Made by a program: the position numbers and the translations under genes. DNA of 36,534 nucleotides from a virus: IMG/VR virus record IMGVR_UViG_3300020192_000037, positions 1 to 36,534 of that record. One strand, given 5' to 3'. This document shows positions 1,056 through 34,209 of the stretch, one piece after another. Below the pieces are notes generated by a model. That model had not been told where the DNA came from. It saw only the letters and a list, made by a program, of their open reading frames with translations, and did no database searches. Position 1 is the stretch's first letter, and each line of letters begins with the position of its first letter.

Positions 1056-1064
1056 ATTATATCA
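1056..1064 (-). promoter_or_regulatory. Extended -10 promoter (TGATATAAT)
   Basis: The minus strand reads CGTGATATAAT, followed about 10 nt later by AGAGGTGA and the ATG at 1034. It matches the recurrent motif of this genome. It overlaps the stop codon of the small Cys-rich gene at 1062-1202. Confidence 0.6.
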
Positions 1065-1202
1065 CGAATTATTTGTTGTATTTGTGGTTATGTAACTGTC
1101 TGGAAAACAACTACATGTTTTTCTTGGTGACGGTGGCAGTATACTCCAATACGCCCCACTATCCATTATTATTGGACTGTTACATCTTGGACAAGATCCC
1201 AC
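1062..1202 (-). CDS. Small zinc-ribbon-like protein (46 aa)
   Basis: This is a 46-residue frame with a GTG start at 1202 and a TGA stop at 1062-1064. It has two cysteine pairs, CPRC near residues 4-7 and CSC near 31-33, the layout of a small zinc ribbon. AGGGAG lies upstream but a little far from the GTG, so the start is uncertain. It is back-to-back with the plus-strand operon that starts at 1263 and precedes the other Cys-containing small gene (816-1034). The paired knuckles make it likely to be real; its function is unknown. Confidence 0.45.
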   Translation of the reverse strand: MGSCPRCNSPIIMDSGAYWSILPPSPRKTCSCFPDSYITTNTTNNS

Positions 1203-1227: not shown

Positions 1228-1256
1228 TTGACTTTCTTTAGTTCGTGTGTTACCAT
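1228..1256 (+). promoter_or_regulatory. Sigma70-type promoter of the plus-strand operon, leaderless
   Basis: TTGACT (1228-1233), a 17-nt spacer and TACCAT (1251-1256) with a TG dinucleotide in the spacer. The ATG at 1263 begins only 6 nt after the -10 hexamer, so transcription would start at or next to the start codon. The layout matches promoters at 27830-27858 (plus strand) and 36106-36134 (minus strand). Confidence 0.65.
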
Positions 1257-1262
1257 TGTAAC

Positions 1263-1625
1263 ATGACTACAGACAAATATAATATCTTTGTTGATTTTTT
1301 GCAATCTTCTTGGCCTAATGTCATTATAGAAGAGTCTACCTTAGAATCATTTCAAAATATTTATGGAAACGATTTACTTAATTTTATTACTATTTATGCG
1401 AAATTTAAACATTTTCCCAACATATCTTCTGTTATGGGAAAAGTAATAGAAGATAGATATTTTGCTTGGGAAACAAAACAAAAAAAACGTCAAATTGTTT
1501 TCATTCTCGATATAACATGTAGTTTAGAAGATTTCTATAGATTAACAGAAGAAATTTATGATAACTTTTTAGATATTTACCCAAACAATAGTCTAACAAA
1601 TGTTGGTTTAGGAAAAAGACAATGA
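1263..1625 (+). CDS. Unknown protein, paralog 1 of a four-gene tandem family (120 aa)
   Basis: This is the first gene of a plus-strand operon running against the structural genes. I chose ATG 1263 over the upstream in-frame ATG 1245 because the -10 box ends at 1256 and because the paralog starting at 1622 aligns from this Met (MTTDKYNIFVDFLQSSWP versus MTEKYNYLVDFLRSSWP). The core is an N-terminal helix-like KY..(F/L)VDFL.SSWP.VII segment; the remainder is mixed alpha/beta with many aromatic residues. There is no signal peptide or membrane segment. The stop overlaps the next start as ATGA, so translation is coupled. Family and function are not recognised. Confidence 0.75.
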   Translation: MTTDKYNIFVDFLQSSWPNVIIEESTLESFQNIYGNDLLNFITIYAKFKHFPNISSVMGKVIEDRYFAWETKQKKRQIVFILDITCSLEDFYRLTEEIYDNFLDIYPNNSLTNVGLGKRQ

Positions 1626-1957
1626 CTGAAAAGTACAATTATTTAGTTGATTTTTTGCGATCTTCTTGGCCTAAAGTTATAATACACGATACTATATTGG
1701 ATGCTTTGCCTATTGTAGATATGAATATAGTTGAAATATTCATTACTTCTTGGAAAAAACTTAAACCAGTTCCTCTTTTATACTCGATAAAAGGAAAAGA
1801 AATACACTCTGGAATATACAGTTTGGTGTTCGAATTAGATCAAAGAAATATCTATAATGTAAATCTTATTATAGCAAAAGAACTACTTTATATTATTAAA
1901 ACAGAACATCCAGAGTTATTAGCAAAGATGAACGAACAAATAGGAGTGGCGGTATGA
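1622..1957 (+). CDS. Unknown protein, paralog 2 of a four-gene tandem family (111 aa)
   Basis: A 111-residue protein sharing the N-terminal DFL(R/Q)SSWP(K/N)VII block with the preceding gene, then diverging. It is joined to both neighbours by 4-nt ATGA overlaps (1622-1625 and 1954-1957), typical of proteins made in fixed ratio. No catalytic motif is visible. The function is unknown; small early phage proteins encoded this way are often host-takeover or anti-defence factors, but that is only inference here. Confidence 0.75.
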   Translation: MTEKYNYLVDFLRSSWPKVIIHDTILDALPIVDMNIVEIFITSWKKLKPVPLLYSIKGKEIHSGIYSLVFELDQRNIYNVNLIIAKELLYIIKTEHPELLAKMNEQIGVAV

Positions 1958-2346
1958 ATACACTAGAAATAGAACAATGGCCTGAGTTAGTAAAATTGTG
2001 GATGAGTGATTTTTGTACTTTATTAATAAGAGCTTGGCCTGATGCTTATATGTCTGAATCTGTTATTGATTTATGTTTCTCTGTAGATCTTCCCGCGTTA
2101 GAATTAGTAGTTGAGTCTTATATAGAATATGAAAATCCACCAACAATTAATTTCATTGGCGCATTCATAGATAAAGTTAATCCAGACAGAAAAGAGTTGT
2201 TACTCATTGTAGAAAATCCCGGAATATCTGGTAGTAAAGAATGGCTAACTAATGTAAATAAATGCGGGGATATTATGCAAAATGCGATAAACAAAAATCA
2301 AAAACTAGCAGAAACAATTTGCTCACAAATAGGATTTGATCTATAA
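1954..2346 (+). CDS. Unknown protein, paralog 3 of a four-gene tandem family (130 aa)
   Basis: This 130-residue acidic protein is more divergent. It retains the family pattern as DFCTLLIRAWPDAYMSESVID, where WP.(A/V)..(S/D) lines up with SSWP.VII.(E/D)(S/T) of paralogs 1 and 2. It has a short N-terminal extension (MNTLEIEQWPELVKLWMS) that itself looks like a second WP segment. It starts in an ATGA overlap after GGAG-like sequence (AGGAGTGGCGGT). The function is unknown. Confidence 0.7.
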   Translation: MNTLEIEQWPELVKLWMSDFCTLLIRAWPDAYMSESVIDLCFSVDLPALELVVESYIEYENPPTINFIGAFIDKVNPDRKELLLIVENPGISGSKEWLTNVNKCGDIMQNAINKNQKLAETICSQIGFDL

Positions 2347-2697
2347 TTGGAAAATAAATATGAATTATTAATTGCTTGTTTACGAGTTGAGTTTCCTGAT
2401 ATATACATAGATAATACAGTAGAAAAAACCACATCTTTCATTGATATAAAAGCACTAACTTATTTAATTGAAGAGTTGCTAGATTGTTATTTAAACAATA
2501 GACCAAATATCATTTTAGCTAGAGGCACACTACAATCAAACTTGTCTTATAATTTAGTTTTAAGCATGGAAAAATTCAATAATTTAAAATATGATATGCA
2601 TAGAATAATTAAAACAGTATCAAGAATAAAATTAATTCAAAATCAGTCCACTAGTTTTTATGAAAGCATTAAGCACATGGAGATAGAAATAATATAA
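2347..2697 (+). CDS. Unknown protein, paralog 4 of a four-gene tandem family (116 aa)
   Basis: A 116-residue frame that starts with TTG immediately after the TAA of the previous gene (TAATTG). Its N-terminus KYELLIACLRVEFPDIYIDNTVEK aligns with the family block, with FP in place of WP. AGGA lies about 13 nt upstream, which is far, so coupling to the previous gene probably matters. The C-terminus is basic and helical. The function is unknown. Confidence 0.65.
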   Translation: MENKYELLIACLRVEFPDIYIDNTVEKTTSFIDIKALTYLIEELLDCYLNNRPNIILARGTLQSNLSYNLVLSMEKFNNLKYDMHRIIKTVSRIKLIQNQSTSFYESIKHMEIEII

Positions 2698-2698
2698 A

Positions 2699-3079
2699 AT
2701 GATAGAAGCAAAATTCCCATCAAAACTAAGAAATGATGTTACTAAAGATGAATTACTGGAAATAGTTGATTTAAAAATAGAAAACGCAAAAGAACGAGTA
2801 GAACTAAATAATGAAAAATATAAACGCGCATTAGAAGAGTGGAGAGAAACAATTAAAGGCAGATTGTTTGCAATTATACCCTATTTAGAGAACAGAAGTC
2901 TAAATGAAAAAGATGCAGCAATAGGTGGAAATTTAGTTTTTTATGATTTTTTTGCACCATATAATCATAATACTGGTTATGACAATTATTGGGAAAAAAA
3001 GAAAATAATAATAGAAGCATTAAGTGATGGATTTATTTCTATTGAGGTACGAGAAGCCCTAGAATTGGTTGAGTATTAA
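2699..3079 (+). CDS. Hypothetical protein with N-terminal coiled coil (126 aa)
   Basis: A 126-residue protein beginning ATG at 2699, one base after the preceding stop. Residues 15-50 (DELLEIVDLKIENAKERVELNNEKYKRALEEW, in part) are charged and heptad-like, so a coiled coil is likely. The C-terminal half is rich in aromatic and polar residues. It does not share the WP block of the four preceding genes. It belongs to the same plus-strand operon. The function is not recognised. Confidence 0.65.
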   Translation: MIEAKFPSKLRNDVTKDELLEIVDLKIENAKERVELNNEKYKRALEEWRETIKGRLFAIIPYLENRSLNEKDAAIGGNLVFYDFFAPYNHNTGYDNYWEKKKIIIEALSDGFISIEVREALELVEY

Positions 3080-3082
3080 ATA

Positions 3083-3283
3083 ATGCCCAGAGGAAGACAA
3101 TTTGGACACATTGTTTCAGAGGAAACTAGAGAAAAAATAAGACAAAGCTTACTAAAAACATACGAAGAAAAACCGGAACTTAAAACTAATTCTGGGCAAT
3201 TTTCTAAAGGAAAAATTGCATGGAATAAAGGTATTCCTGCAACAGAAGAAATGGCAATTAAGCTAAGAACAGCAAGAATATGA
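3083..3283 (+). pseudogene. Homing endonuclease, N-terminal NUMOD3-type DNA-binding part, cut by TGA
   Basis: ATG at 3083 begins a 66-residue frame ending at an in-frame TGA (3281-3283). The segment HIVSEETREKIRQSL matches the NUMOD3 type of DNA-binding helix found in phage homing endonucleases, and GQFSKGKIAWNKG is a typical linker. The frame continues without another stop to 3742, where the nuclease domain lies. The joined length (about 219 codons) equals that of the intact relative near 28.5 kb. The single TGA is therefore most likely a nonsense mutation. Confidence 0.65.
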
Positions 3284-3310
3284 CTGCCTTCTGCTAATAA
3301 GGAAAAAGCA

Positions 3311-3742
3311 ATGAGTGGTGAACAAAAATTAAAAATTAGTAATAGCAAAAAAGGTATTAAACCAAACTATCCAAATAATGAATTAAGATTACAGCGCATA
3401 AGTGAAGCAAAAAAGAAACATGTAGAAACTAGTGTTGGTTGTTTATGTGCAGCTTGTAAAGTACCAACTAGCCCAACAGTAATAGAAAATATTCTAGTTG
3501 ATATACTTCTTAGAGAATTTCCTTGTGTAGAAAAATATAAGAAATTCGGAAGGTATGAAGTAGATGCATATTTACCTAAATATCATTTAGCTTTTGAGGC
3601 AGATGGAGAAAGGTGGCATCAAAACAAAGATAGAGATATTAAAAGAGATGCTTTTCTTTTAGAGAATTTTAGTTTGCCTGTTATTAGATTTACCGGCAAA
3701 GAATTAGTAGCAATGAAAAAAGCGTACATCAGCACGCCTTAA
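3311..3742 (+). CDS. Homing endonuclease, C-terminal Vsr-like (EDxHD) nuclease part
   Basis: This frame is in phase with 3083-3283 and starts at an internal ATG. It contains another NUMOD3-like repeat (SGEQKLKISNSKKG), a Cys cluster (CLCAAC) and the nuclease core VDAYLPKYHLAFEADG followed by RWHQ and later IRFTGKEL. This core is shared with Vsr/DUF559-type nucleases, and the EDxHD homing endonuclease I-Bth0305I is the known phage example. The same core occurs at 27877-28506 (VDAFLPEYNLAFEADG). It is the last gene of the plus-strand operon and converges on the structural gene at 3767. It may be inactive if the upstream TGA is not read through. Confidence 0.7.
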   Translation: MSGEQKLKISNSKKGIKPNYPNNELRLQRISEAKKKHVETSVGCLCAACKVPTSPTVIENILVDILLREFPCVEKYKKFGRYEVDAYLPKYHLAFEADGERWHQNKDRDIKRDAFLLENFSLPVIRFTGKELVAMKKAYISTP

Positions 3743-3766: not shown

Positions 3767-4417
3767 TCAGCCGCCCGAACTCACCGTGAGATCATAAGTG
3801 CTTGCAAGGCTATCACCATTTGCAAGATTGATTACACTGAATAGACTTCTATCCCAAAGCACACCAGCACCTGAGGTATCAGTACTAAAGATGCCGTGTT
3901 CTGTAACGGCAGCGGAGGCATCAACTGTATTGGTACCTATAGTTCTGAATACTGGTGCAGAGGCTTCTGCTAATGATCCAGTTGCTCTAGTATTATTTAC
4001 TATATATTGAGTTGTTAGTTCTGTTACAAGTGTAGTATCACCTACTGCTTCTACTGTACCACCAGTACCTAAACCATGATATTTCATAATTTCTAATTCT
4101 ACTATATTTTGCCACGCATCTACCAGGAACGCTACTCCAGCATTTGTTACTACTTTTGTACTAACAATACCATAGTCATCTTTTTTGCCTGATTCTCCAT
4201 GTATATGCACTAAAGATAGACTTGATTCTATTACTACTATTTTTGAGAATCTTTCTATTAATTCTGCGGCTAATTCTATAGGTAAATGCTTTTCAGCTAA
4301 AAGTTTAATAAATTGACCTATGTTAGATTTAGGTGTGTAATCTTTGATTTTTTGGGTAACTTCGTCTGGTATCCATAAATCTTTAACTAATACAATAGGT
4401 GATCTTTTAAATAACAT
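3767..4417 (-). CDS. Phage structural protein (tail-associated, 216 aa)
   Basis: The protein has two parts. An alpha-helical N-terminal third (about residues 1-75) is followed by a beta-rich Thr/Ala/Gly domain with motifs such as KYHGLGTGGT, TTLVTELTTQYI and VFRTIGTNT, ending in SLFSVINLANGDSL. The beta domain is paralogous to the 135-residue protein at 405-812. Proteins with this ending are commonly encoded among phage tail or appendage genes. The start overlaps the stop of the next upstream gene (4417), so the two are coupled. Confidence 0.7.
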   Translation of the reverse strand: MLFKRSPIVLVKDLWIPDEVTQKIKDYTPKSNIGQFIKLLAEKHLPIELAAELIERFSKIVVIESSLSLVHIHGESGKKDDYGIVSTKVVTNAGVAFLVDAWQNIVELEIMKYHGLGTGGTVEAVGDTTLVTELTTQYIVNNTRATGSLAEASAPVFRTIGTNTVDASAAVTEHGIFSTDTSGAGVLWDRSLFSVINLANGDSLASTYDLTVSSGG

Positions 4418-7290: not shown

Positions 7291-9855
7291 CTAGAGTCCT
7301 TGAGCATAGAAACCATCGCAATAAACTAAAGTAGTATTATATATTAATATTCCAGCATTATTTCCATTTACTGGACTTCCATCTTCATAAGTTATGATTA
7401 ATTTTCCATCTACCCATACTCTAATTAACCCAGCTATTTTAATTACTCTTAGCTCCATTCTTCCATTGGAATTAGGAGTATAGGAAACAAAAGCCGGATA
7501 AGTAGTAGCACCAGCACTTACACGTTGTATATCTATTCTGTTTGTTACATCATCCCAATAAGCATAATAATAATTACTACTATTTAAATAACTAAATGTT
7601 AATCCAACAGTTTCTACTGCGCTCGCACTTAAAGAAGAAAATTTAGCTTCTACTACTTGATTAGATGTACCTAATGTCTGATGAACAACGCTTACACCAG
7701 CAGTATCTGCTTTTATTCTATTTCCAGATACAGACATTGCTGCACCAACAGCCGTCCAGACAGTACCTGTAGGAGGAGTACCAATTGATGCTGCGATGTC
7801 TGGTCTTTTAAAATCATCATATACAATTGCAGTTGGGTTTCTAAAATTATGAGATGGGGTTAATGTGACTTCTGTTTGAAATAATTCTCCTATAGCTATA
7901 TGGTGTTTTATTCCTATTACTCTGTAATATTCATTTATTCCTAATCCGGTTTCTACACCACCAGTATCTTTGTATCTTACCAGTTCTCCTAGCTCCAACG
8001 CAATCATATCAGTAGTAACAGCAGAAGTACTATTATGATAATCACCCCAGAGAAAATCTAAAATTAGATTAGAAGTATAATATCTATGTTTTTTTAATTC
8101 TGATACTGTGTAGTTTCTCATCAACGGAATGTCTCCGTAATAAGAAAAATCATGATCTATTGTTCCTGTTCCAATAAAAGTAATGGGTGTATTTTCTATT
8201 CTTTCTATAGATACTTCTTCATTTGGTTGCACAAGTGGGGTAGTTCCTCTTATTTGAAGCTTAGTGATATAAAAAGGATTAAGAGGATGATAAAAACCAA
8301 TTACTCCTCCATTAGATCCAAAAGCACCAAAGGAAACAGTAATTGGTGCGCCAGGAGGAGTAATTATATAATCTGTACCCGTTCCATTTGCTAGAGAATT
8401 TAATTTATAATCTACATTAGCTACTGGTGTAATAGGAGTAGATAGTGTTTCATAATATATATAAGCTGTATATCCAAATCTTTCTGGAACTAATCTAGAA
8501 TCATTGGTTTCTGCCCCCCTTGGGTCAGACCAAATAACAGCAGTTGCAGATTGAGACGAATCATATTTCATTACTTTTATTTTTGATTTTATTGCCATAT
8601 CTTCTACTCTATATTTCTCATTTGCAGAAATAGGAAGAATAGAGGTTCCTTGTCCCCAAGTTCTACTTACTGTAGAACCCATCATATTAGAGGCTTTTTT
8701 AAAAATAAACTTACTGTCTTTAGATGTATAAAAAAACCCAGCTAGTTCATGATTAGCTACATCATTAGCTTGTTGCCAAACATTTATTTCTGATGATGTG
8801 GTAGTAGAAGACTCACCATACTTACTAGCATAATGAATTCTTATTTGTATACTATCTACACTAATGGTTTGTATAGCAGTATTAGCAGCATTGTCTTCAA
8901 ATATTATATCTACACCAAAAGTATTAGAGTTAATAGATTCATACTGTCCACTATTACTACCAGCTAAACTTTGACTACTACCAAATACATATGCAGTATC
9001 AGAAGTAGTTAAAGGAATTGGAGTTGTAACAAGATTTCCATAACCATATGTACTATATCTTAATTCTACTGATTTTATGTTGGCTTCTGCTGTAGCTTTA
9101 GCTTCTATTGATATTTCTATTCCATGAATATTATTGATAGTAGTAGGAATATTAAACTGAAAATCAGTAGCTCGTAAGGTAGAAGATTGTTCTTTACTGG
9201 TATTGTCAACAGTTGTCCATGTAGCATAAACAGCATCATCTAGTATGGCATTAGTTGGATTAACCCAAGAAGAGCCTTGATCTTCACTTGCACCACATCT
9301 TTTAGTTATAATAATTTCTTTGAAAGAAAAAGAAGGTTGTTCTCCTATCCAAAAATTACTTAATATATTATCTGAAGAATCTAATGTATAATTACTTGCT
9401 GATATTGTTGGTATTTGTCCTAATAGTAATGCCATAGCTGCACTTACACTAGATGTTGTTTGTATTGCTACAGATATGGGAGTACTAAAGTTAGCATATA
9501 AAGAAATATCGTCAGCAGTTATTGACACACTGTTTTGTTTTGATTGAGCATCGTATTGATTAGTATAATTAGAAATAAAGCCTTGCCAAGCTATTGTACC
9601 AGATACCTTTACTCTTAATTTTACGCCCTGTTGAAGTTTTCCATATAAAACAGAAAAACTATTTTCAATAGTAAATACTCTTAAAGGATCTAAAAATTGT
9701 ATTGTTAATTGAGATCCTTGTGGTAAATAGTTTTCGTCTACTCCTCTATCTATATCTATAGATGTACCAGTACCTGTTAGATACCCAGTTAAGTCTGTAG
9801 AATAAGTATTGTTATTGAGAAAGTCTGCTTCTATTAGTATTGTTGGTGTTGCCAT
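7291..9855 (-). CDS. Tail-tip/baseplate protein, paralog C, with beta-sandwich insert and LamG-like C-terminus (854 aa)
   Basis: Residues 1-130 form a conserved N-terminal block (ILIEADFLNNNTY, DIDRGVDENY, VKLRVKVSGTIAWQGFI) shared with the two upstream genes. Residues about 185-345 are a beta-sandwich insert that resembles the insert of paralog A. The core resumes at WQQANDVANHELAGFFY, and the last 190 residues (YDDFKRPDIAAS, then VEAKFSSLSAS, SSNYYYAYWDD) look like a concanavalin/LamG-type carbohydrate-binding fold. All three paralogs end in Y(A/T)QG(L/I). It is probably a tail-tip or receptor-binding component; its position after the tape measure supports this. Confidence 0.75.
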   Translation of the reverse strand: MATPTILIEADFLNNNTYSTDLTGYLTGTGTSIDIDRGVDENYLPQGSQLTIQFLDPLRVFTIENSFSVLYGKLQQGVKLRVKVSGTIAWQGFISNYTNQYDAQSKQNSVSITADDISLYANFSTPISVAIQTTSSVSAAMALLLGQIPTISASNYTLDSSDNILSNFWIGEQPSFSFKEIIITKRCGASEDQGSSWVNPTNAILDDAVYATWTTVDNTSKEQSSTLRATDFQFNIPTTINNIHGIEISIEAKATAEANIKSVELRYSTYGYGNLVTTPIPLTTSDTAYVFGSSQSLAGSNSGQYESINSNTFGVDIIFEDNAANTAIQTISVDSIQIRIHYASKYGESSTTTSSEINVWQQANDVANHELAGFFYTSKDSKFIFKKASNMMGSTVSRTWGQGTSILPISANEKYRVEDMAIKSKIKVMKYDSSQSATAVIWSDPRGAETNDSRLVPERFGYTAYIYYETLSTPITPVANVDYKLNSLANGTGTDYIITPPGAPITVSFGAFGSNGGVIGFYHPLNPFYITKLQIRGTTPLVQPNEEVSIERIENTPITFIGTGTIDHDFSYYGDIPLMRNYTVSELKKHRYYTSNLILDFLWGDYHNSTSAVTTDMIALELGELVRYKDTGGVETGLGINEYYRVIGIKHHIAIGELFQTEVTLTPSHNFRNPTAIVYDDFKRPDIAASIGTPPTGTVWTAVGAAMSVSGNRIKADTAGVSVVHQTLGTSNQVVEAKFSSLSASAVETVGLTFSYLNSSNYYYAYWDDVTNRIDIQRVSAGATTYPAFVSYTPNSNGRMELRVIKIAGLIRVWVDGKLIITYEDGSPVNGNNAGILIYNTTLVYCDGFYAQGL

Positions 9856-9858
9856 TAA

Positions 9859-11889
9859 TTATATTCCTTGTGTATATATATTATCAAATAATGTATTTGA
9901 GTCTGAGATAACACCACAATATGTTCCAGCGGCAGATAAATTAATATGAGATGTTGATAATACTAATTTACCATCTGCAAATATTTTAACTTTATTGCTT
10001 TTTTTAACTACTCTTAATTCTAAAGTATTATTACTTTTTCGTGTATAGGATACTATATCAGTATTTAAGGACACGCCATTGTGACTAAAAGCAATTGTTT
10101 GTCCATTAACGGGATTATATCCATAAGCAGCTTCAAAAACATCATTTAAAAAATTAGTGCCAGAGAAAAGTATCTTTACGAAACCAGAAGAAGTAACTCC
10201 TAGATTACTAAAAAAAACCTCTACTATTTGTTCAACAGATCCTAAATTAAAATAACTTACATTATTAGAAGTATTTGGAGTAGCTGTATTGTTATTTATA
10301 TGAAATCCACCAGCATCATTAGTCCAAATATGACCAGTAGGAGAGGTGTCTAATGATGATGCTGTGTTTGGTCTGTCAAAATCGTCCCAAGCAATATTAC
10401 TTTTATCTCTAAACATATGACTTGGTATTAACTTTACTGTTGTTTCAAACAATTGACCTATTGCTATATTGTGATCTATTGATACAACTCTAAAGTAATC
10501 ATCTACATTGGATCCAGTATTAGTTATAGATTTATAATAAACAAGATCATATAATTCTAATGCAATCATATCGGCAATTATTGCTGTATCTTCTGTTGTT
10601 GTTAATGCACTTCCCCACTTAAATTGTAATTCTAAAGCAGGATTTGAGTATCTATGTATTCTTAATTGTGAATAAATATAATCTCTAACTATATAAGTGT
10701 CTGAAAGAAAATCAAATTTCTTTTTAATAGACCCTATTTGATTATATATTGAGGGAGGAGCTAGTTCTCTAGAAAACACTACTGAACTGGTTGGTGGACT
10801 TGCTGGTACACCTCGTATTTGCATTTTACTGATATAAAAAGGGGTGGCAGAGAAATTGTAAAAGAATACAGTACCATTAGCTCCATTATTAACAAAACTA
10901 AATGTTAAATCTGCTTGTCTATCTCCGCCTGTTCCATTATTACTTGAATTAACTAAATAATCAGTAGTATATGCCGGTGTTGTTATAGAACTAGCTACAT
11001 AATCATAAGTAGCAGTAAATTCATATGTTTCATATGCTTCTACTTTTCTTGCTCCTCCATTTATTAAATCTATAGTCTCTCTATACATTATTACTGTACC
11101 AGCAGGATCTACTTGATAATTTGTTGTTTCTATTTCTGCTTTTTGTGCAATATCTTCAAATTTTATTTCATAATTTTCATATACAGGTAAAACATTTGTT
11201 CCACTTCCCCATAATTTAGGAGAAGCAACACCAAGAATATTTTCTATTTTTTTAAACACCAATGTATTACTTTTATTAACAAATAGTACTCCACCCATAT
11301 CATGATCAGCTAAGTTTTGTAAAGCACCCCAAGCACTTGTTCCTTGTGTATCTATCCTTTGTTCTGCTAAATTAGCTGTTATTCCTGCCCAATAAAAAGG
11401 TAAAGTTGTTGTGGAGGTATCAAAACTTGTAGTAATAGTAGGAAATATTTGATTAGTTATTAGTGTCATAGCTGCATTTACAGTAATTGATCCACTATAT
11501 GCAGCAGAAATATTAGCATATTTATTTATTATTCCACCAATATCTTGTGCATTTATATTACAAATATTTACTTTATTTCTAGCATCAAACTTCCAACCAT
11601 AACTAATAATATGACCTTGCCAAACAATAACAGTATTTATTTTTACTCTTAACTTTACTCCGACTTCTATTTTTCCATATAAAGAGCTGGAACCTAATGT
11701 TTGAGTAAATATTCTAGATTTATTAGTTACTGAGAAATTTATTTCAGAAGTATTATATTGTAAATTATCATCTACTCCTCTAGATATAGAAAAACCACTA
11801 CCAACTCCAATAATATAGTCATGAAGATTAGTGTTCCAAGTAGAGTTCCCTGCAAAATCAGCTTCTATTAATACTGTTGGTCTAGCCAT
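9859..11889 (-). CDS. Tail-tip/baseplate protein, paralog B, minimal form (676 aa)
   Basis: This is the shortest of three tandem paralogs. It has the N-terminal block (MARPTVLIEADFAGNSTWNT, SRGVDDNLQYNTSE, GVKLRVKINTVIVWQGHI), the middle core (ALQNLADHDMGGVLFVNKSN, LVFKK) and the C-terminal LamG-like domain (AWDDFDRPNTASSLD, TGHIWTND), ending YTQGI. It lacks the beta-sandwich insert of paralog C and the propeller of paralog A. Its start follows the stop of paralog A within a few bases, and GGxxGKxV-type enzymatic motifs are absent. A tail-tip hub or fibre role is inferred. Confidence 0.75.
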   Translation of the reverse strand: MARPTVLIEADFAGNSTWNTNLHDYIIGVGSGFSISRGVDDNLQYNTSEINFSVTNKSRIFTQTLGSSSLYGKIEVGVKLRVKINTVIVWQGHIISYGWKFDARNKVNICNINAQDIGGIINKYANISAAYSGSITVNAAMTLITNQIFPTITTSFDTSTTTLPFYWAGITANLAEQRIDTQGTSAWGALQNLADHDMGGVLFVNKSNTLVFKKIENILGVASPKLWGSGTNVLPVYENYEIKFEDIAQKAEIETTNYQVDPAGTVIMYRETIDLINGGARKVEAYETYEFTATYDYVASSITTPAYTTDYLVNSSNNGTGGDRQADLTFSFVNNGANGTVFFYNFSATPFYISKMQIRGVPASPPTSSVVFSRELAPPSIYNQIGSIKKKFDFLSDTYIVRDYIYSQLRIHRYSNPALELQFKWGSALTTTEDTAIIADMIALELYDLVYYKSITNTGSNVDDYFRVVSIDHNIAIGQLFETTVKLIPSHMFRDKSNIAWDDFDRPNTASSLDTSPTGHIWTNDAGGFHINNNTATPNTSNNVSYFNLGSVEQIVEVFFSNLGVTSSGFVKILFSGTNFLNDVFEAAYGYNPVNGQTIAFSHNGVSLNTDIVSYTRKSNNTLELRVVKKSNKVKIFADGKLVLSTSHINLSAAGTYCGVISDSNTLFDNIYTQGI

Positions 11890-11892
11890 TTA

Positions 11893-14800
11893 TCAAAGTC
11901 CTTGAGCGTAAAAATTAGTAAAATCATTTTGTGTTCCACCACTAGATGCTGAATTTTGACTAAGTAAGCCTACTTTTGTGGCTGTATTTAAGAAACTATC
12001 TGTACCAGAATACAATTCTCTATATCCAACGTATGCTTTAATATAGTTATCATAACACATAACCCTTAATCCATTGACTCCTGAGCCTAATGTATACGGA
12101 GTTAATGTTGCTACATGTGTGGTAGCACCGGCTATTACTTTATCTAAATAAACAAACGTAGTTCCAATTATATCCCCAACATATAATGCCCAATAATTAC
12201 TTGAGTCTTGATATCTAAACACCACTCCTCCCTTAGCTGTTCCACCGGAACCAACTATTTCTCCAGCAATTACCTCTACAACTTGTTTAGCTGTAGTTAA
12301 TTCTAAAGTGGCTATTTCTATTGTAAAGATACCAGCACTTCCTTGTGCTTTATTACTTAATATAGACAATCCACTAGACCAAACGTGTCCTGATGGAGAG
12401 TTTCCTAGTGACGAAGAATTTCCTCTTTTAAAATAATCCCAAGCTACTTTATCTACGTTTCTATTAGTCCAAAAAGGCAACGTAGTTAGTGTAGTTTGTA
12501 TTAGTTCACCTATATTTAATTGATGATTTATTCCTACTATTCTTAGTGGATAGTCTATGTTCATACCATCAGATGTTGTTTTGTCTGCATATCTAAATGT
12601 TTGAAATAATTCTGTTTGAACTAAAAATGAATTTTTAGTATTTTCTGTAGATATTGATGAATTCCAATTATATGAAAGATTTAATTTAGGATTAGTATAT
12701 CGTGATGTTTTGAAATTACCAATGGAGAAACCAGTAACTACCTTAGAGTCTGGCAAATAGAGTAGCTCTTCTTCTGTTTGCCCAGTTCCCCAGATAGTAG
12801 TAGTGTTTACAATTAGTGGCTCATTATATTCTGTAAATTTATCATTCAAAGGTAAACTTAACGGTGTTCCTCTTATTTGAAATTTAGTCATATAAATGAT
12901 AGCAGCAGAGTTATTAAATATATAAAGATTGCCCTCTGTTCCTAAATCATAAAAATCTATTATAGCAGCGTTGTTTTGATTATTGGTTCCATTTATTGTT
13001 GATGCAAAAGTGTAATCAACATCAACTAGTAATGGCTCAGTTTTATATACTTGATTTATATTGTATTTAATAGTAGTTTCATAAACACCATATGGTGCAA
13101 TTTCAATACTATCTGATTTAGCAGATCCTTTAGTTTCTACATATACTAAAAGTCCATCTTGTCCAATAACATAAGATTTAGTATTTAATTTATATCTAGT
13201 TTTTCTATCTTCTGCTCTTAATTCATACTCTGCTTCATAAGGAGAAGTATCATTAGCATAATCTGGACCAACAGAATAAGTAGGAGTAGAGTATAAATTA
13301 CTAGATCTCTTTTTAAAAGTTAATTGCCCACTACCACTAATATATAAAAATCCATTTAATTCATGGTATGCTATTTTTTTAATTATTTCCCAAACTGAAC
13401 CGGCATCAGGATCAACAAAGTAAGGAATAATTTGATCTCCAGATTCAAGAGATAATAAACTGTTTCCTTTATATACAAGCAAATAAGGTGATCCACTTGA
13501 TGCTATTGCTAGAGCACCAGTAGAAGTATCAAAAGTTATTCCATTTGTATCACTTGATGAATATGTTAATCCATTAGTTATTTTTTGCCCTATCTCTTTA
13601 TTATTATAATAATACATTAAAACAGAGGTATTAGCAACTGTTCCTATTGCTACTTGTTTATTGTCTAAAGAAAAAGATATTGAATTACCTTGGCCTGGAG
13701 GTAGTGTACTGGGGTCTGCTAATTTAGTTCCGAAAGCAGTTCCAGTCCAATTATAAATAGTAATATAAGGAGAAGAAAGTAAAGATACTCCAATATAATC
13801 TTCTCTTTGAGACCATGCGACCCCTAATGCCGCAGATCCTAAAGCTGTGACAGGATTTGTTATTTTAGTTCCAAAGACATTTTTATTCCAATTATATACA
13901 GACAAATAAGGACTAGTATTATGACCAACAGCTAAATAATTACCAGATGGAGAAAAAGAAACAGATTTTCCATCTCCGGTTGGTATAGTGGTTGGATTTG
14001 CTCTTTTGAGGCCAATAGCTTTTATGTTGTTGTCTTCGTAATATACTGTCATTTTAACATAGTCTATATCTATTAACATACCAGACGCTTGTAAACTAAA
14101 CCCAAACCCAACATCATTAACTATAGAGTATGTTGATGCATATCCCCATTTGTCTGTCGGTCCACCAAAAACAACAGTTTGATTTGCAGACAAAAAAGCA
14201 TTAGGTTCTTTTTTAACTCCTACTACCACTCCCCCATAGTATAGTTGAAGTCCAGCTACTCTGCATCCCCAAGTATTACCAGCTTGTATTTCTATTTCTA
14301 TACCTGAAATAGTAGCGGTTGAAGGAACAGAAAAACTATAATTCCTACAAATTAAAGGAAAATTACTGCTAGAAAAAGTCTGTGAGGCATCAAGTCCGTT
14401 ATCTGTTTTTATATTATCTGGACTAGACCAATTTCCATTGGTAGCAGTTACTGTTACTGGAAAAGCAGTAGTATTAACAGAAATAGGATAAACACTAATA
14501 TAAGGGCTAACCTCATGCGATATAGCTACTAGTTTAGAATCATGACTGAAACTTATGCCTAAACCTTTTCCTGTAGGTGTTGTAGTAGGGTCTGTAAACC
14601 GTGTCCCAATAGCTCCAGAAACAGCGTCAAAGGCATATAAAGAAAAATATGGTGTATTACTATGGGAAATTCCTAAAATGGTTCCATCAGAACTAAATGC
14701 TACTCCATTACCTTGCCCAGCAAGTGCCGGACTAGGGTTTCCTAACTTGGCTCCGATAGTAGTTCCGTTCCAAGGATATACAGAAACAAATGGACTAGTA

Positions 14801-15381
14801 AAGTGTGCAATAGCTACATATTTACCACTTGGATGAAAAGCAACTGCGTTTCCTGTACTTGCTGGTAATGCTGCTGGATCTGTTGCTTTAGAAACAAAAG
14901 AAGTACCGAAATTATAAATATCTGGTATTAAAATAGCTATTCTTCTTATTGCTTCTGATGTTGTAATATTTTGAGCAAAGGGTACTTTTATTTCAGTGTA
15001 TTTATCTAATATATATGATAAATCATTACAAGTAACTGAACATACATATTGTTTTATTTGAAAATCATATTCATAATCTAAATTAGTAATATACCCTGTC
15101 CATAAATTAAATACTACTGCATCTTTTGTTGCATTTACTCTTATTTTTACTCCTATTCCCCATCTTCCCCAAATAGAACTAGAGTAATTATTTAATGTAA
15201 ATATAGATGATCTATTTGTTAATTTAAATGTTACTTCTGATGATTGATATTCTCTATTTTCATCTATTCCTCTTTGAATATTTACATCACTAAACTCAGC
15301 AACCATATAATCTAATAGACTTAAACTAAAGCTATCATTATTATCTATGTCTGCGTCTATATACAACACACTTGCAGTCAT
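11893..15381 (-). CDS. Tail-tip protein, paralog A, with seven-bladed propeller split by a beta-sandwich (1162 aa)
   Basis: The N-terminal block (ADIDNNDSFSLSLLDYMV, IQRGIDENREYQSSEVTF, GVKIRVN) and the C-terminal block (AWDYFKRGNSSSLGNSPSG, ending FYAQGL) match paralogs B and C. Between them lie seven repeats of the pattern GxGVAFSxDGxxLAISHxxSPY(L/I)SVYxWN, at about residues 165-302 (three) and 453-640 (four), consistent with a WD40-like propeller. A domain of about 150 residues (304-451) interrupts it between blades 3 and 4 and resembles the insert of paralog C. Such propellers usually bind ligands or proteins; here host recognition is likely but inferred. The ATG follows GGAAGA at good spacing. 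Confidence 0.78.
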   Translation of the reverse strand: MTASVLYIDADIDNNDSFSLSLLDYMVAEFSDVNIQRGIDENREYQSSEVTFKLTNRSSIFTLNNYSSSIWGRWGIGVKIRVNATKDAVVFNLWTGYITNLDYEYDFQIKQYVCSVTCNDLSYILDKYTEIKVPFAQNITTSEAIRRIAILIPDIYNFGTSFVSKATDPAALPASTGNAVAFHPSGKYVAIAHFTSPFVSVYPWNGTTIGAKLGNPSPALAGQGNGVAFSSDGTILGISHSNTPYFSLYAFDAVSGAIGTRFTDPTTTPTGKGLGISFSHDSKLVAISHEVSPYISVYPISVNTTAFPVTVTATNGNWSSPDNIKTDNGLDASQTFSSSNFPLICRNYSFSVPSTATISGIEIEIQAGNTWGCRVAGLQLYYGGVVVGVKKEPNAFLSANQTVVFGGPTDKWGYASTYSIVNDVGFGFSLQASGMLIDIDYVKMTVYYEDNNIKAIGLKRANPTTIPTGDGKSVSFSPSGNYLAVGHNTSPYLSVYNWNKNVFGTKITNPVTALGSAALGVAWSQREDYIGVSLLSSPYITIYNWTGTAFGTKLADPSTLPPGQGNSISFSLDNKQVAIGTVANTSVLMYYYNNKEIGQKITNGLTYSSSDTNGITFDTSTGALAIASSGSPYLLVYKGNSLLSLESGDQIIPYFVDPDAGSVWEIIKKIAYHELNGFLYISGSGQLTFKKRSSNLYSTPTYSVGPDYANDTSPYEAEYELRAEDRKTRYKLNTKSYVIGQDGLLVYVETKGSAKSDSIEIAPYGVYETTIKYNINQVYKTEPLLVDVDYTFASTINGTNNQNNAAIIDFYDLGTEGNLYIFNNSAAIIYMTKFQIRGTPLSLPLNDKFTEYNEPLIVNTTTIWGTGQTEEELLYLPDSKVVTGFSIGNFKTSRYTNPKLNLSYNWNSSISTENTKNSFLVQTELFQTFRYADKTTSDGMNIDYPLRIVGINHQLNIGELIQTTLTTLPFWTNRNVDKVAWDYFKRGNSSSLGNSPSGHVWSSGLSILSNKAQGSAGIFTIEIATLELTTAKQVVEVIAGEIVGSGGTAKGGVVFRYQDSSNYWALYVGDIIGTTFVYLDKVIAGATTHVATLTPYTLGSGVNGLRVMCYDNYIKAYVGYRELYSGTDSFLNTATKVGLLSQNSASSGGTQNDFTNFYAQGL

Positions 15382-20655: not shown

Positions 20656-21081
20656 TTATATATCTTCAGTAACAGCACCAGTGGGAGCTAATACTACTTC
20701 AAACATAGTTAGTGCTCCTCTTGATGGAAGTCTATTAAAGGATTTAATTATTGTTTCTACAGAAGTATTTTTTATAGAACCCCAAGTTATTTTAAATGTT
20801 CTTAAAATACCAGTTGTAAGATTACCTACATCATTAAAAATAGCATTAGGTCCAGTTACAGCAGTATCGTCATAAAAACCCTTTAGTGTTATTTCTTCTA
20901 CTGTTCTTAGACCAGCAAATAGCTTTTCTACCCAAGAGTCTCCAAAAGTATGACTGTCTTCTAATGAAGCAGTAATATTTATTCCATTACACTCAGTAAT
21001 ATAAGCAGACATGTTTTGTAAAGTAGAACCATCAGATCTATCGAAATCTATTCTAACACTAGCAGAATTATAGTAAGCCAT
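20656..21081 (-). CDS. Tail-tube-like protein, paralog 4 (141 aa)
   Basis: It begins MAYYNSASVRIDFDRSDGST and contains HTFGDSWVEKLFAG, LKGFYDDTAVTGPNAIFNDV, then GSIKNTSVETIIKSFNRLPS, all shared in order with the genes at 21094 and 21508. These motifs match the N-terminal domain of the larger tube protein at 21933. Proteins of this type form the stacked rings of siphophage tails. This copy is the most 3' of the four and lies directly before the terminator. It may be a minor tube or tail-terminator-proximal protein rather than the bulk tube. Confidence 0.75.
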   Translation of the reverse strand: MAYYNSASVRIDFDRSDGSTLQNMSAYITECNGINITASLEDSHTFGDSWVEKLFAGLRTVEEITLKGFYDDTAVTGPNAIFNDVGNLTTGILRTFKITWGSIKNTSVETIIKSFNRLPSRGALTMFEVVLAPTGAVTEDI

Positions 21082-21093
21082 ATTGTATTATCC

Positions 21094-21504
21094 TTAAGCT
21101 TCTGTTACTGTCCCAGACAAAAGGACAATCACTACTTCAAATTTTGTTAATTGTCCTCTTCCTGGTATTCTATTGTAACTCTTAATTGTTGTTTCAAAAG
21201 ATGTAGTCTTTGAACCACCCCAAGTAATAGTTAAAGTGCCATTTGTAGAATTTCCTACTCTGTTAAAAACAGCATCTGGTCCATTAGTAACATCATCGAA
21301 AAAACCCTTAAACGAGACTTCTCCGATGTCTTTTACTCCAGCATAAGTTCTTTCTACCCACTGATCTCCAAACGTATGAGTTTCTTCTATCATAGCGTTA
21401 ATAGGTATCCCATTGAATTCTGTGATAAATCCCTTCATTTCTATTGGGGTTCCAGCAGAATTGTCGTACATTATGGATATGTTAGCACTAGTATATGTAG
21501 CCAT
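21094..21504 (-). CDS. Tail-tube-like protein, paralog 3 (136 aa)
   Basis: A paralog of the neighbours on both sides: MATYTSANISIMYDNSAGTP, HTFGDQWVERTYAG, KGFFDDVTNGPDAVFNRVGN, WGGSKTTSFETTIKSYNRIP. It is slightly shorter, having lost residues in the loop after FNRVGN. Close tandem spacing (12 and 3 nt to the neighbours) shows a single transcription unit. The function is the same family role as paralogs 2 and 4; which copy builds the tube cannot be decided from sequence. Confidence 0.75.
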   Translation of the reverse strand: MATYTSANISIMYDNSAGTPIEMKGFITEFNGIPINAMIEETHTFGDQWVERTYAGVKDIGEVSFKGFFDDVTNGPDAVFNRVGNSTNGTLTITWGGSKTTSFETTIKSYNRIPGRGQLTKFEVVIVLLSGTVTEA

Positions 21505-21507
21505 TTA

Positions 21508-21933
21508 TCAAACCTCTGTTACTGTTCCAGTGGTACTTAACACCACTTCAAATTTTGTTATTTCTCCACGAGAAGGCAATGATTTATAGGACTTAATATA
21601 AGTCTCTACAGTACTTGTTTTTGAACCACCCCAAGTTATTTTTAGTGTTCTTGTTCCAGCAGCGGTTGTTTTAAGATTAAGAATATCGTTAAATATAATA
21701 TTAGGTCCAGAAGGAGAAGCGTCGTCATAAAGTCCAGATAAAGTTATGTCTCCAAATCTAAACGTTCCTTTAGTTACTCTCTCCACCCACGAATCTCCGA
21801 ATGCATGAATCTCGTCTAAATCCATAGTAGCGCTTAATCCGCTAGTAGAAATAATATAATTACTCATATCAACTAAAGTTCCAGTAGCGTTATCAAATTC
21901 TATTTTTAAATTAGCACTAGTATATGTAGCCAT
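21508..21933 (-). CDS. Tail-tube-like protein, paralog 2 (141 aa)
   Basis: Shares the block order of the family: MATYTSANLKIEFDNATGT, HAFGDSWVERVTKG, LSGLYDDASPSGPNIIFND, WGGSKTSTVETYIKSYKSLP, and ends in TTGTVTEV. Its first base overlaps the last base of the larger tube gene at 21933. It is a single-domain form without the C-terminal domain of that gene. Confidence 0.75.
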   Translation of the reverse strand: MATYTSANLKIEFDNATGTLVDMSNYIISTSGLSATMDLDEIHAFGDSWVERVTKGTFRFGDITLSGLYDDASPSGPNIIFNDILNLKTTAAGTRTLKITWGGSKTSTVETYIKSYKSLPSRGEITKFEVVLSTTGTVTEV

Positions 21934-22703
21934 TAATTTCTAGCAAACCCTACCATTCCTGTAAAACTTGAACTACCAGAACCTCCTGTAAATGTCCAAA
22001 GACACCTAACCCATATATTTACCTGAGTGCCAGCAACAACCGCTACTCTAACAGCAATTGGGGCAGTTGTAACAGTAGTAAAAGTAGCTAAATCCGCATA
22101 ACTGCCGTCTGTTGCTGAGTGTTGTATTTTCATTACTAAACCAGAAGCGCCGCCTGCTGTATATGAATTAACTTGAAAATATCCAACTCCGCCATTTGAT
22201 GTCAGTGCTCCGTTGTCCGCGCCTAATCCATTACCAGTTGCTCCAGGATTAACACTATTAGCTAATAATAAGTCACCTTGATCTACTGTTCCGCTACCAG
22301 CATAATTTGCCGTTACTTTATGCAGTGCTCCCCTTGATACTTTTCTATCATAGTTTCCTTCAAACGGACCCTCAAAACCAATAAAACCTTTATGTGCGCC
22401 TGTTGTAACTGTTGGACTTGTGTTTGTTTCTAAACCAATACATATTATTCTTGATATACCAATTTGTGTTGTTGTACTTACTAAAGCTGCATTAGTTGCT
22501 AATGCAGCATCATCATAAAAAGCATCTTGAGATAAATTAAATTGTCTTAAACCAACAGGTAGAATCTTTGCATAAGTATCTCCTAATGCAGTAGTGTCTT
22601 CTACCATACCCTCTACGTTTATATCAACCTTAGTTGTAAGCCCTCTAAGCTCGTATCCACTAACATAGAAAAAACCTACATCAGCGCCTGTATATCTAGT
22701 CAT
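21933..22703 (-). CDS. Major tail protein, two-domain form (256 aa)
   Basis: The N-terminal 130 residues (DVGFFYVSGYELRGLTTKVD, ALGDTYAKILPVGLRQFNLS, AFYDDAALATNAAL) fit the tube fold shared with the three downstream genes. The C-terminal part (ALHKVTANYAGSGTVDQGDL, then MKIQHSATDGSYADLATFT, ending GGSGSSSFTGMVGFARN) is typical of siphophage major tail proteins. Of the four paralogs this is the best candidate for the main tube subunit. Its start overlaps the end of the 86-residue gene upstream. Confidence 0.8.
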   Translation of the reverse strand: MTRYTGADVGFFYVSGYELRGLTTKVDINVEGMVEDTTALGDTYAKILPVGLRQFNLSQDAFYDDAALATNAALVSTTTQIGISRIICIGLETNTSPTVTTGAHKGFIGFEGPFEGNYDRKVSRGALHKVTANYAGSGTVDQGDLLLANSVNPGATGNGLGADNGALTSNGGVGYFQVNSYTAGGASGLVMKIQHSATDGSYADLATFTTVTTAPIAVRVAVVAGTQVNIWVRCLWTFTGGSGSSSFTGMVGFARN

Positions 22704-24824: not shown

Positions 24825-25934
24825 ATGCTAAAAACCTATAAATACAGAATCTATCCAAACAAAAAACAAGAAATAATATTACTTTCTACTTTAAATTCTT
24901 GTAGATTTTTGTATAATAGTGCTTTAGAACAAAGAAAGACTACTTACACTCAACACAAAAAATCTCTTAATTACTATGGACAGTCTGGAGAGTTACCCTA
25001 TATAAAAGAACTATTACCAGAATACTCTCTTATTTATTCTCAGGTGTTACAAAATGTTCTTAGGAGAGTAGATAAAAGTTTTCAGAACTTCTTTCGTAGA
25101 TTAAAAACAAAAGAGAAAGCTGGTTATCCACGATTTCAAAACATTGATAGATACAATAGTTTTACTTATCCACAAAACGGATTTTCACTTCTTTCTAATA
25201 AACTAAAGTTATCTAAAATAGGCACCATTAATATAAAGCTTCATAGAGAAATACAAGGTGTAATAAAAACTTGTACTATCAAACGAGAAGTAAATAAATG
25301 GTATGTCTGTTTTTCTTGTGAAGTAGAGACAAAAGAATTACCTAAAACACAAGAAATTATTGGTGTAGATGTTGGTCTTGAGAAATTTGCTACTTTATCA
25401 AACGGTATTCAAATTGATAATCCTAGATTTTTTAGAAAATCAGAGAAGAAACTAGCTCACGAACAACATATTTTATCTAGAAAAAAGAAAGGTTCTAATT
25501 CTAGAGCTAAACAAAAGAATAAAGTAGCTGTTATATATATTAAAGTTAAAAATCAAAGAAAAGATTTCTTACACAAAACAAGTAGAAACATTGTTAACAA
25601 TTACGATTTAATTGTATTTGAAAAACTAAATATTAATAATATGATCAAAAATCATCATTTAGCAAAATCTATTAGCGATGCTGGTTGGTCAACATTTATG
25701 AATTTCACTTCTTACAAGGCAGAATGCGCTGGTAAAAAAGTATTATTCGTGAATCCTAAAAACACATCTCAAATATGTTCGGGTTGTGGTTTAATAGTTA
25801 AGAAAAACCTTTCTGTCAGAATGCATAACTGCTTAGGTTGTGGTCTAAATATAAATAGAGATGTAAATGCAGCAATTAATATTTTAAGACTAGGAACTAG
25901 TCATGATGGAGCTATGGCATTAGCCAAGCGTTGA
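24825..25934 (+). CDS. tnpB: TnpB RNA-guided nuclease (369 aa)
   Basis: The protein is full length with every key residue in place: an N-terminal MLKTYKYRIYPNKKQ segment, RuvC Asp182 in IGVDVGLEKFATLS, Glu266 in LIVFEKLNI, a zinc ribbon (Cys318, Cys321, Cys336, Cys339) and Asp346 in INRDVNAAINIL. TnpB cuts DNA guided by an RNA made from the element's 3' end. No TnpA is present, so movement would need a partner in trans. The C-terminal end may be frameshifted: in the next frame after KR the DNA reads PSVEVRSS, like the usual TnpB ending. It is inserted opposite to the head/connector operon. Confidence 0.92.
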   Translation: MLKTYKYRIYPNKKQEIILLSTLNSCRFLYNSALEQRKTTYTQHKKSLNYYGQSGELPYIKELLPEYSLIYSQVLQNVLRRVDKSFQNFFRRLKTKEKAGYPRFQNIDRYNSFTYPQNGFSLLSNKLKLSKIGTINIKLHREIQGVIKTCTIKREVNKWYVCFSCEVETKELPKTQEIIGVDVGLEKFATLSNGIQIDNPRFFRKSEKKLAHEQHILSRKKKGSNSRAKQKNKVAVIYIKVKNQRKDFLHKTSRNIVNNYDLIVFEKLNINNMIKNHHLAKSISDAGWSTFMNFTSYKAECAGKKVLFVNPKNTSQICSGCGLIVKKNLSVRMHNCLGCGLNINRDVNAAINILRLGTSHDGAMALAKR

Positions 25935-27829: not shown

Positions 27830-27858
27830 TTGACATGTTTTGACTTTTGTGTTACATT
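27830..27858 (+). promoter_or_regulatory. Sigma70-type promoter of the homing endonuclease
   Basis: A consensus TTGACA, 17-nt spacer, TGTGT-TACATT (27853-27858). It resembles the promoter at 1228-1256 (shared GTGTTAC(C)ATTGTA). A 4-codon frame (ATG AAG AGA AAA TGA) begins 7 nt after the -10 box and overlaps the endonuclease start. Confidence 0.65.
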
Positions 27859-27876
27859 GTAGTCTATGAAGAGAAA

Positions 27877-28506
27877 ATGACTAATTATTCAGTGAAGTCT
27901 TGTGGTAATTCTCATAAATCCTGTATTAAATGTACAACAAGAATAATCACAGATGAATTTCGTGAAAAAATGCGAACTAAAATGACTTTACAGAAATTAG
28001 ATCCAGAATACATAAAGAAACTAAGTATGTCGCAGACTGGAAGAAAACATTCTCAAAAATTAATAGATAAACGGATATTATCTAGACAAGTTGGGAAAGG
28101 CTGGGCAAGTACGTCGGAAGAAACTAGACAAAAACTAAGAATTAGTAGAATAAAGCATATGGAATTAATTCTACCAGATTGTAAGTGTGTAGCACATAAC
28201 CCAAGATCGCATGGTAAAAAGAAAATTACAAAAATAGAATTAATTCTTATTGATTTTTTGCAAAATGCCGGATTTAAGATAGAAACACAAGCAAGTTTTG
28301 GTCTATTTCATGTTGATGCGTTTTTGCCAGAATATAATCTGGCTTTCGAGGCCGATGGCACTTACTGGCACCAGAGGAAAGAAGTAAGAGAACGAGATAT
28401 CAGAAGAGATAAAGAGTTATTAGAAAAATATGGAATTATTACTATTAGATTGACTGAAAAAGAATTAGAGAAAATGGAAAAGGAGAGAATTTCTTCTCTC
28501 CTTTAG
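27877..28506 (+). CDS. Homing endonuclease, NUMOD3 plus Vsr-like (EDxHD) nuclease (209 aa)
   Basis: I chose ATG 27877 rather than 27847, because the latter lies inside the promoter. The N-terminal half holds NUMOD3-like repeats (ITDEFREKMRTKMTLQKLD, MSQTGRKHSQ, STSEETRQKLRISR) with Cys/His clusters (near residues 9-19 and 102-112). The nuclease core is VDAFLPEYNLAFEADG (Asp147, Glu158, Asp160) with WH at 164-165, then RDIRRD-like residues and ITIRLTEKEL. It is homologous to the broken copy at 3083-3742. It sits beside the capsid gene on the opposite strand, a position from which it could spread by cutting a phage that lacks it. Confidence 0.82.
   Translation: MTNYSVKSCGNSHKSCIKCTTRIITDEFREKMRTKMTLQKLDPEYIKKLSMSQTGRKHSQKLIDKRILSRQVGKGWASTSEETRQKLRISRIKHMELILPDCKCVAHNPRSHGKKKITKIELILIDFLQNAGFKIETQASFGLFHVDAFLPEYNLAFEADGTYWHQRKEVRERDIRRDKELLEKYGIITIRLTEKELEKMEKERISSLL
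28470..28503 (-). terminator. Terminator after the capsid gene, inside the endonuclease 3' end
   Basis: A perfect 10-bp stem (AAGGAGAGAA / TTCTCTCCTT, 4-nt loop) spans 28480-28503. On the minus strand it is followed by TTTTCCATTTT. It ends capsid transcription and also encodes the last residues of the endonuclease. On the plus strand it is followed by TAGGTTTT, so it may work both ways. A weaker 7-bp hairpin lies at 28517-28534. Confidence 0.65.
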
Positions 28507-34000: not shown

Positions 34001-34209
34001 AAGAGTATTAATGGTGCTTCAGGAAAATTTCTTGCTATCCAGTTAACAGCAGACACTACAATACTATTGTTTAATCCACTTCCCACTTCTCTAGCATAAT
34101 TTCTCTGAGATCTTGGCATCATTGACCAAGAAGTAGACATATTAGCAGCAGGATATTGAATTAAATTTTTAAAAACAGAAGAAACAAAGGAAAGTGCCTT
34201 GTTTGCCAT
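31081..34209 (-). CDS. Portal protein interrupted by an intein (1042 aa precursor)
   Basis: The portal forms the ring through which DNA enters the head. Exteins 1-309 and 693-1042 make a 659-residue portal: YWIKVRNKIGEVVELWYCPQ, DVVHFRFGIDP, GLSPLASLLREIY and LRRLPEERVSAVLGIPAMVL are typical of HK97/SPP1-type portals. The intein lies after GLGAGLEHS, a conserved part of the fold. After residue 860 the protein continues with a helical extension of about 170 residues beyond the usual family length; its role is unknown. AGAGGTAT precedes the ATG. Confidence 0.9.
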   Translation of the reverse strand: MANKALSFVSSVFKNLIQYPAANMSTSWSMMPRSQRNYAREVGSGLNNSIVVSAVNWIARNFPEAPLILLDTDKKTNETITITAHPMLKLISRPNRFYSGTLLWGATLTDLTIAGNAYWIKVRNKIGEVVELWYCPQHLMTPISNTTEFISGYLYSPDGRLNKGVEYTTEDVVHFRFGIDPNNMAKGLSPLASLLREIYTDDEASNFSASIVTNLGVPGVIISPANMTGNPSQITTDAEKIKRDFSDRFTGDKRGEPLVFTSPTSVTTLTWTPQEMNLTGLRRLPEERVSAVLGIPAMVLGLGAGLEHSCLPGYTRIWTQNGIVEIKDIQKGDKVLSLNNGKVEYHDVNAHWLTGKKKIYEIRTKNRTIRATANHPFFVRQNGLGGVGSKVGNSQRKARVEPRYLENLKVGDKIVQLQETPDLGNIYLPDGSLASVDFMKFAGMLLGDGYIGEKLGYIQVCLPKKDNVRDQYEIIIRNVIKDNNFTRRDGTIQPKFTDSRSGFSFKSRSLVDKCINLELNGYSVTKRIPSWVFGLSKELRLAYLAGLIDSDGTIDKRGVATICQANENLVHDLKDLFLSCGIPSSNVHKKEIHVSQLPNSGSKEWYYAWAFAVSSAKLLSEIPFEDISYREKVNNNLNRYKNIEFHAESVGLPKELGFYTISSITEIGEEDVYDIEVDQAHNFIANGFLVKNSFTNMQSAKEAAYENNIIPTQKLLSEELHLQLLRDFESEEKLDSIIVHFDLTNVRALMTDMTEIFKRADMGMNSGWMTVAEARKMVGLFVDETHNVYLRNWRVVAVPPEKARDLPLQAIPNTSRGIGGSGADLVPLPAEPRDIFGSTNPASQQGEIPIPVAVPVIDTPKKVPAAGKEYSDSMEIYIKKTYSTAYQKFKLFSRATNRKLDEREHKTLNSIDRNLLTKTLYPYAKEMNDLTLIYYTTTFSVKKDVLLTEIELNYIINGLSEKIIDHLTQYMTYNKVMKIDLVNFIDTKDILTLLLNSILKYIYREVGVNAAIDAYGKYVVPVAEINNRTDSIYLPVLNTELE
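32134..33282 (-). other. Intein with LAGLIDADG homing endonuclease in the portal (383 aa)
   Basis: It begins with Cys (residue 310, CLPGYTRIWTQNG, block A), has block B (RATANHPFFV), two LAGLIDADG motifs (FAGMLLGDGYI and YLAGLIDSDGTID), and ends IEVDQAHNFIANGFLVKN before Ser693, which is the required +1 nucleophile. The penultimate residue is Lys rather than the usual His. Splicing and homing residues look intact. It inserts in a conserved part of the portal, a common strategy of inteins. Confidence 0.9.

Follow-up and report, generated by a model that had tools for sequence, protein, structure and literature searches.

Within the window analysed here, by which we mean the whole stretch of 36,534 nt at positions 1 to 36,534 of IMG/VR virus record IMGVR_UViG_3300020192_000037, four small genes lie end to end on the plus strand inside a late gene cluster that is read on the minus strand, raising the question of what such an array might do for the phage that carries it. 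The preliminary description of this DNA had taken them for four paralogs that were duplicated repeatedly and diverged quickly, as proteins countering a varying target such as a host defence might. The record (36.5 kb, classed as linear, 34% GC) is probably a fragment of a virus genome. Read from right to left, its minus strand encodes a methyltransferase, a portal protein with an intein, a prohead protease and the major capsid protein, and continues leftward with tail-tube genes, the tape measure gene, tail-tip genes and an amidase endolysin; the genome is that of a siphovirus-like phage, a virus of bacteria. Its capsid protein is 42% identical to that of Streptomyces phage Chymera, and its portal protein has at most about 53% identity to those of other IMG/VR contigs, except for one identical 5.1-kb fragment (L032), which does not span the array. 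The intein, which has a LAGLIDADG domain, is inserted after about residue 306 of the portal gene (31081–34209, minus strand). The left end of the record (1–250) is visibly richer in GC and contains the start of a minus-strand ORF (MAWGVPKIGASLVDATGDFTL...) that is cut off at the contig end. An Rfam search gave no match.

Three plus-strand stretches interrupt the late genes: the array with the two genes that follow it (1263–3742), a TnpB (IS605 OrfB) gene (24825–25934), and an intact homing endonuclease gene of the DUF559/MTES_1575 type (27847–28506). The closest relatives of TnpB (about 50–60%) came from Methanoperedens, Patescibacteria and Syntrophomonas, a mixture of anaerobic and archaeal taxa; the search assigned no host. 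The features of the first stretch are as follows.

1228–1256, plus strand: promoter-like site TTGACT-17-TACCAT, with TG before the second hexamer
1263–1625, plus strand: gene 1 (protein p1), 120 aa, pI 4.9
1622–1957, plus strand: gene 2 (p2), 111 aa, start overlapping the gene 1 stop (ATGA)
1954–2346, plus strand: gene 3 (p3), 130 aa, pI 4.2, net charge about -12 (-11.7), ATGA overlap with gene 2
2347–2697, plus strand: gene 4 (p4), 116 aa, TTG start directly after the gene 3 stop
2699–3079, plus strand: gene 5, 126 aa, coiled-coil-like N-terminal half, no family match
3083–3742, plus strand: homing endonuclease with a DUF559/REase_MTES_1575 domain, weak NUMOD3 and an in-frame TGA at 3281–3283
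3719–3740, no strand assigned (scored on the minus strand): terminator-like hairpin lying between two convergent genes, the endonuclease gene and late gene 3767–4417

The four ORFs of the array are real: four plus-strand ORFs of at least 100 aa occur in this region, compared with a mean of 0.003 and a maximum of 1 in 1000 dinucleotide shuffles. Their coordinates and their coupling were as first described, with ATGA overlaps at 1622–1625 (genes 1 and 2) and 1954–1957 (genes 2 and 3) and a direct adjacency of genes 3 and 4, where the TAA at 2344–2346 is followed by the TTG start at 2347. Their orientation opposite to the structural genes was likewise confirmed, with late genes on the minus strand on either side. 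These flanking late genes, 405–812 and 3767–4417 (both minus strand), have a C-terminal domain in common (40% identity over 57 aa). The second of them is 47–64% identical to genes of higher-GC phages that are otherwise little related, which gives it the look of a mobile domain of the tail or decoration type. Divergent from the array, with about 60 bp between, lies an unlisted 46-aa gene (1062–1202, minus strand) with a GTG start and zinc-ribbon-like CxxC..CxC cysteines.

The array had also been credited with its own leaderless promoter. The promoter-like site would place the transcript start near the gene 1 ATG, making the transcript leaderless or nearly so, and a Shine-Dalgarno sequence is absent before gene 1 (1263) and present for genes 2 and 3; however, such promoter-like matches were no commoner in the region than expected by chance (38, compared with 35.8 in shuffled sequences). 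Together with the orientation and the 3' hairpin, a promoter-like site without a Shine-Dalgarno sequence at gene 1 fits a self-contained accessory unit. Third-position GC was 0.15–0.22 in the operon and 0.11–0.29 in the late genes, which suggests that the low GC of the operon reflects amino-acid composition and gives no sign of recent foreign origin.

A coiled-coil gene and a broken homing endonuclease do follow the array, as the preliminary description had stated. Gene 5 showed no relationship to genes 1–4 by alignment or profile. When the endonuclease was read through its stop codon, PF04480 (a Vsr-like catalytic domain) matched it with 24.7 bits, above the cut-off of 20.6, and its catalytic part is 43% identical to the intact gene at 27847–28506. 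We regard it as a homing endonuclease in decay, provided that the TGA does not stem from a sequencing error. Recoding of TGA was considered as the cause of the break and rejected, as many genes in the window end in TGA beside the next gene. The catalytic domain is the same as in homing endonucleases of the EDxHD/DUF559 type with NUMOD3, of which the genome holds the related intact copy elsewhere; the copy in the operon differs from these in its in-frame stop, and there was no sign that it mobilises the array.

How far the four genes are paralogs depends on the pair compared. Genes 1 and 2 are certainly paralogs by sequence comparison, with 38% identity over 76 aa (E 2e-14) and 75% nucleotide identity over 77 nt. 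Across the array, the proteins have two elements in common: a block near the N-terminus, 'KY..L...L...WP...I', and the motif 'P.i..i.G'. For genes 3 and 4, pairwise local alignment gave Z values of 1.8–4.6 and shuffle p values of 0.001–0.06. A profile of genes 1 and 2 placed gene 4 above 3000 decoys (E 0.003) and did not separate gene 3 from them, and a profile of genes 1, 2 and 4 then recovered gene 3 at E 2.6e-4, exceeding all 3000 decoys. In global alignment, the pairs 2–3 and 2–4 outscored all 500 shuffles. Gene 4 opens with 'ENKYELLIACLRVEFPDIYID', which lines up with 'TEKYNYLVDFLRSSWPKVIIH' in gene 2, and '..QIG..' terminates both the gene 2 and gene 3 proteins. The description of four paralogs is thus secure for genes 1 and 2, while genes 3 and 4 are probable, although marginal and as yet unproven, distant paralogs of this pair.

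The divergence of genes 1 and 2 did not bear out the proposal of quick divergence. Identity between their proteins falls from 62% (residues 3–28) to 31% (29–60), 16% (61–79) and 10% beyond. Synonymous change is near saturation, with pS 0.62, dS 1.30 and dN 0.53 over the aligned part, and in the conserved N-terminal block dN was 0.22 compared with a dS of 0.86 (dN/dS about 0.26). This combination of a nearly saturated dS and a dN below it suggests that the duplicates are old, that the N-terminal block is under purifying selection and that the C-terminal halves are drifting, with no sign of rapid adaptive change. Duplication itself had been read as a sign of a varying host target, but tandem paralogs also occur among the tail genes of the same phage: in an all-against-all comparison of the window's proteins, the tail-tube genes at 20656, 21094 and 21508 were 46–52% identical, with 21933 more distant, and the tail-tip genes at 7291, 9859 and 11893 (7291–15381, minus strand) were tandem paralogs at 28–34% identity. 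Duplication of the array therefore says little about its function and is no pointer to a varying host target. The tail-tube (major tail protein-like) paralogs, at 20656–22703 on the minus strand, are unusually many; the three large consecutive genes at 7291–15381 (minus strand) have a C-terminal region of about 400–500 aa in common and similar N-termini.

The statement that no family is recognisable was borne out, as the array proteins had no match that stands up in Pfam, PHROGs, NCBIfam or PADLOC, and none to structural or replication families in the first three of these. The proposed HMM search found no relatives and no related arrays, when a four-protein profile was run against 24 other virus records and six genomes, and against about 1500 genomes from groups to which the TnpB relatives pointed. 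No relatives were detected in IMG/VR (single proteins and two alignments), GTDB representatives (one alignment), phage and plasmid records (single proteins), or the ten phages that share gene 3767–4417 (single-protein search); the pattern-based scans reach close relatives only, and distant ones may have escaped. A literature search returned nothing bearing directly on the array. Lack of relatives is usual for accessory phage genes.

Three matches were examined and set aside. The first (E 0.9) pairs p1 with a protein of phage nd4 that has 201 aa and lies in a different setting; the less conserved portion of p1 aligned with its central part, the pairwise E of 4e-8 comes from a single comparison only, and we took the match as chance. 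Matches of p1 to Cas8 (PADLOC and NCBIfam, E 0.003–0.04) involved only the final 44 positions of a protein that is far larger, and the less conserved half of p1, with no such match in p2–p4; they were rejected. A profile match to 4mbr (E 0.01), a serine-rich repeat adhesin, had no other support.

Structures of p2 and p3 were predicted from the four-sequence alignment. The p2 model (mean pLDDT 78, pTM 0.67) is ordered as a helix, short strand, short helix, helix, beta hairpin and two helices, and the p3 model (pLDDT 67) has this order with one extra strand and an uncertain C-terminus. The suggested comparison of predicted structures thus gave agreement in element order; however, both models were built from one four-way alignment, so that their likeness is no independent proof of paralogy. 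Foldseek searches of the PDB (p2 and p3) and a viral library (p2) gave nothing with E below 0.1 (best E values of 0.17–0.23 and 0.30, respectively; TM-scores mostly below 0.45), suggesting that the models, as predicted, match no known fold.

Our favoured reading, held tentatively, is that the array is a moron-like accessory operon of small protein-binding factors. It would be an autonomous unit set among the late genes of this siphovirus-like phage. Its four small acidic, probably cytoplasmic proteins would be products of old tandem duplications that have retained one N-terminal module in common and diverged in their C-terminal halves; gene 5 and the degraded homing endonuclease would belong to the same operon. 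The likeliest mode of action of the four would be binding to other proteins, with a separate partner for each copy, which could be a factor of the host, a defence protein or a competing phage. All four proteins carry a negative net charge (-1.5 to -11.7), a property more in keeping with protein partners than with DNA. Expression would be early or independent; we infer this, as we do the protein-binding mode and the inhibitor role, the last of these (anti-defence or superinfection) being one possibility only.

The accessory reading draws on the opposite orientation with late genes on both sides, the promoter-like site and hairpin at the ends, the purifying selection on the N-terminal block with little similarity between the C-terminal halves of genes 1 and 2, and the lack of matches to structural or replication families. 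Against it stand the third-position GC, which is as in the late genes, and the tandem duplication of tail genes. Phage morons resemble the array in lying on the opposite strand amid late genes; its promoter-like site, of a type no commoner here than in shuffled sequences, and its terminator-like hairpin, scored on the minus strand, would fit the comparison. The array differs from morons in that its third-position GC is no different from that of the rest of the genome, and in that the unit comprises several genes as well as a homing endonuclease. The searches brought up no close relative that would show the unit present in some phages and absent from others; the array is missing from those portal relatives that were searched, the nearest of which share about 53% or less and are too distant for such a comparison. 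No positive sign of any target of the proteins was found.

Two alternatives, both rather unlikely and to the same degree, are specific forms of such protein-binding accessory factors. The four paralogs might be subunits of a hetero-oligomer with a single job, formed when an ancestral homo-oligomer became hetero-oligomeric after duplication, with coupling keeping the amounts equal. The ATGA coupling of genes 1, 2 and 3, the adjacency of genes 3 and 4, and the shared N-terminal and divergent C-terminal halves are consistent with this, but coupling is also common among unrelated phage genes. Alternatively, the array might act in counter-defence (anti-CRISPR-like or anti-abortive-infection), with each copy inhibiting a different variant of the host's defence. 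The array has the general look of such genes, being an accessory unit whose coupled products are small and acidic and lack relatives; p3 is very acidic, and multi-gene anti-CRISPR and anti-defence operons are likewise runs of small acidic orphan genes. The array differs from those operons in lacking an Aca-type regulator, a known anti-defence family and positional evidence: searches of Pfam, PHROGs and NCBIfam found no Aca-type HTH gene or anti-defence family in genes 1–5, where the PADLOC matches were weak and partial, and no defence marker was present next to the array. The near-saturated dS, the purifying selection on the conserved block, the duplicated structural genes and the lack of related arrays also weigh against this role, and the original argument for it from rapid divergence is unsupported.

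A more ambitious version, which we consider improbable, is that the proteins form a new inhibitor family with a new fold, in which the shared N-terminal half would dock and the divergent halves would be target-specific, so that one operon might neutralise several host-defence variants or several competitors.

It is less probable still that the proteins are winged-helix-like regulators of phage or host transcription. The models do have their elements in the order of a winged helix (helix, short strand, helix, helix, strand, strand), but no winged-helix protein appeared among the best Foldseek matches listed (all E > 0.1), the models are of moderate confidence, Pfam gives no HTH family, and the net charge is negative, the third helix of p3 and p4 being hydrophobic or acidic. 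An accessory role in replication, like that of the helicase loader/inhibitor G39P, was suggested by eye by the 'W..L...(helix)..PPt' spacing of p3; it is mostly refuted and very improbable, as PF11417 had no match at E<=10 in the window or E<=1 in the proteins, and the models place a beta hairpin where the G39P domain is all-helical.

If the array did encode a multi-target inhibitor, it would found a new family of anti-defence proteins and offer a compact example of tandem duplication as a route to diversity. As things stand, it adds one more set of orphan accessory genes, probably an ordinary one, in a phage without close sequenced relatives.
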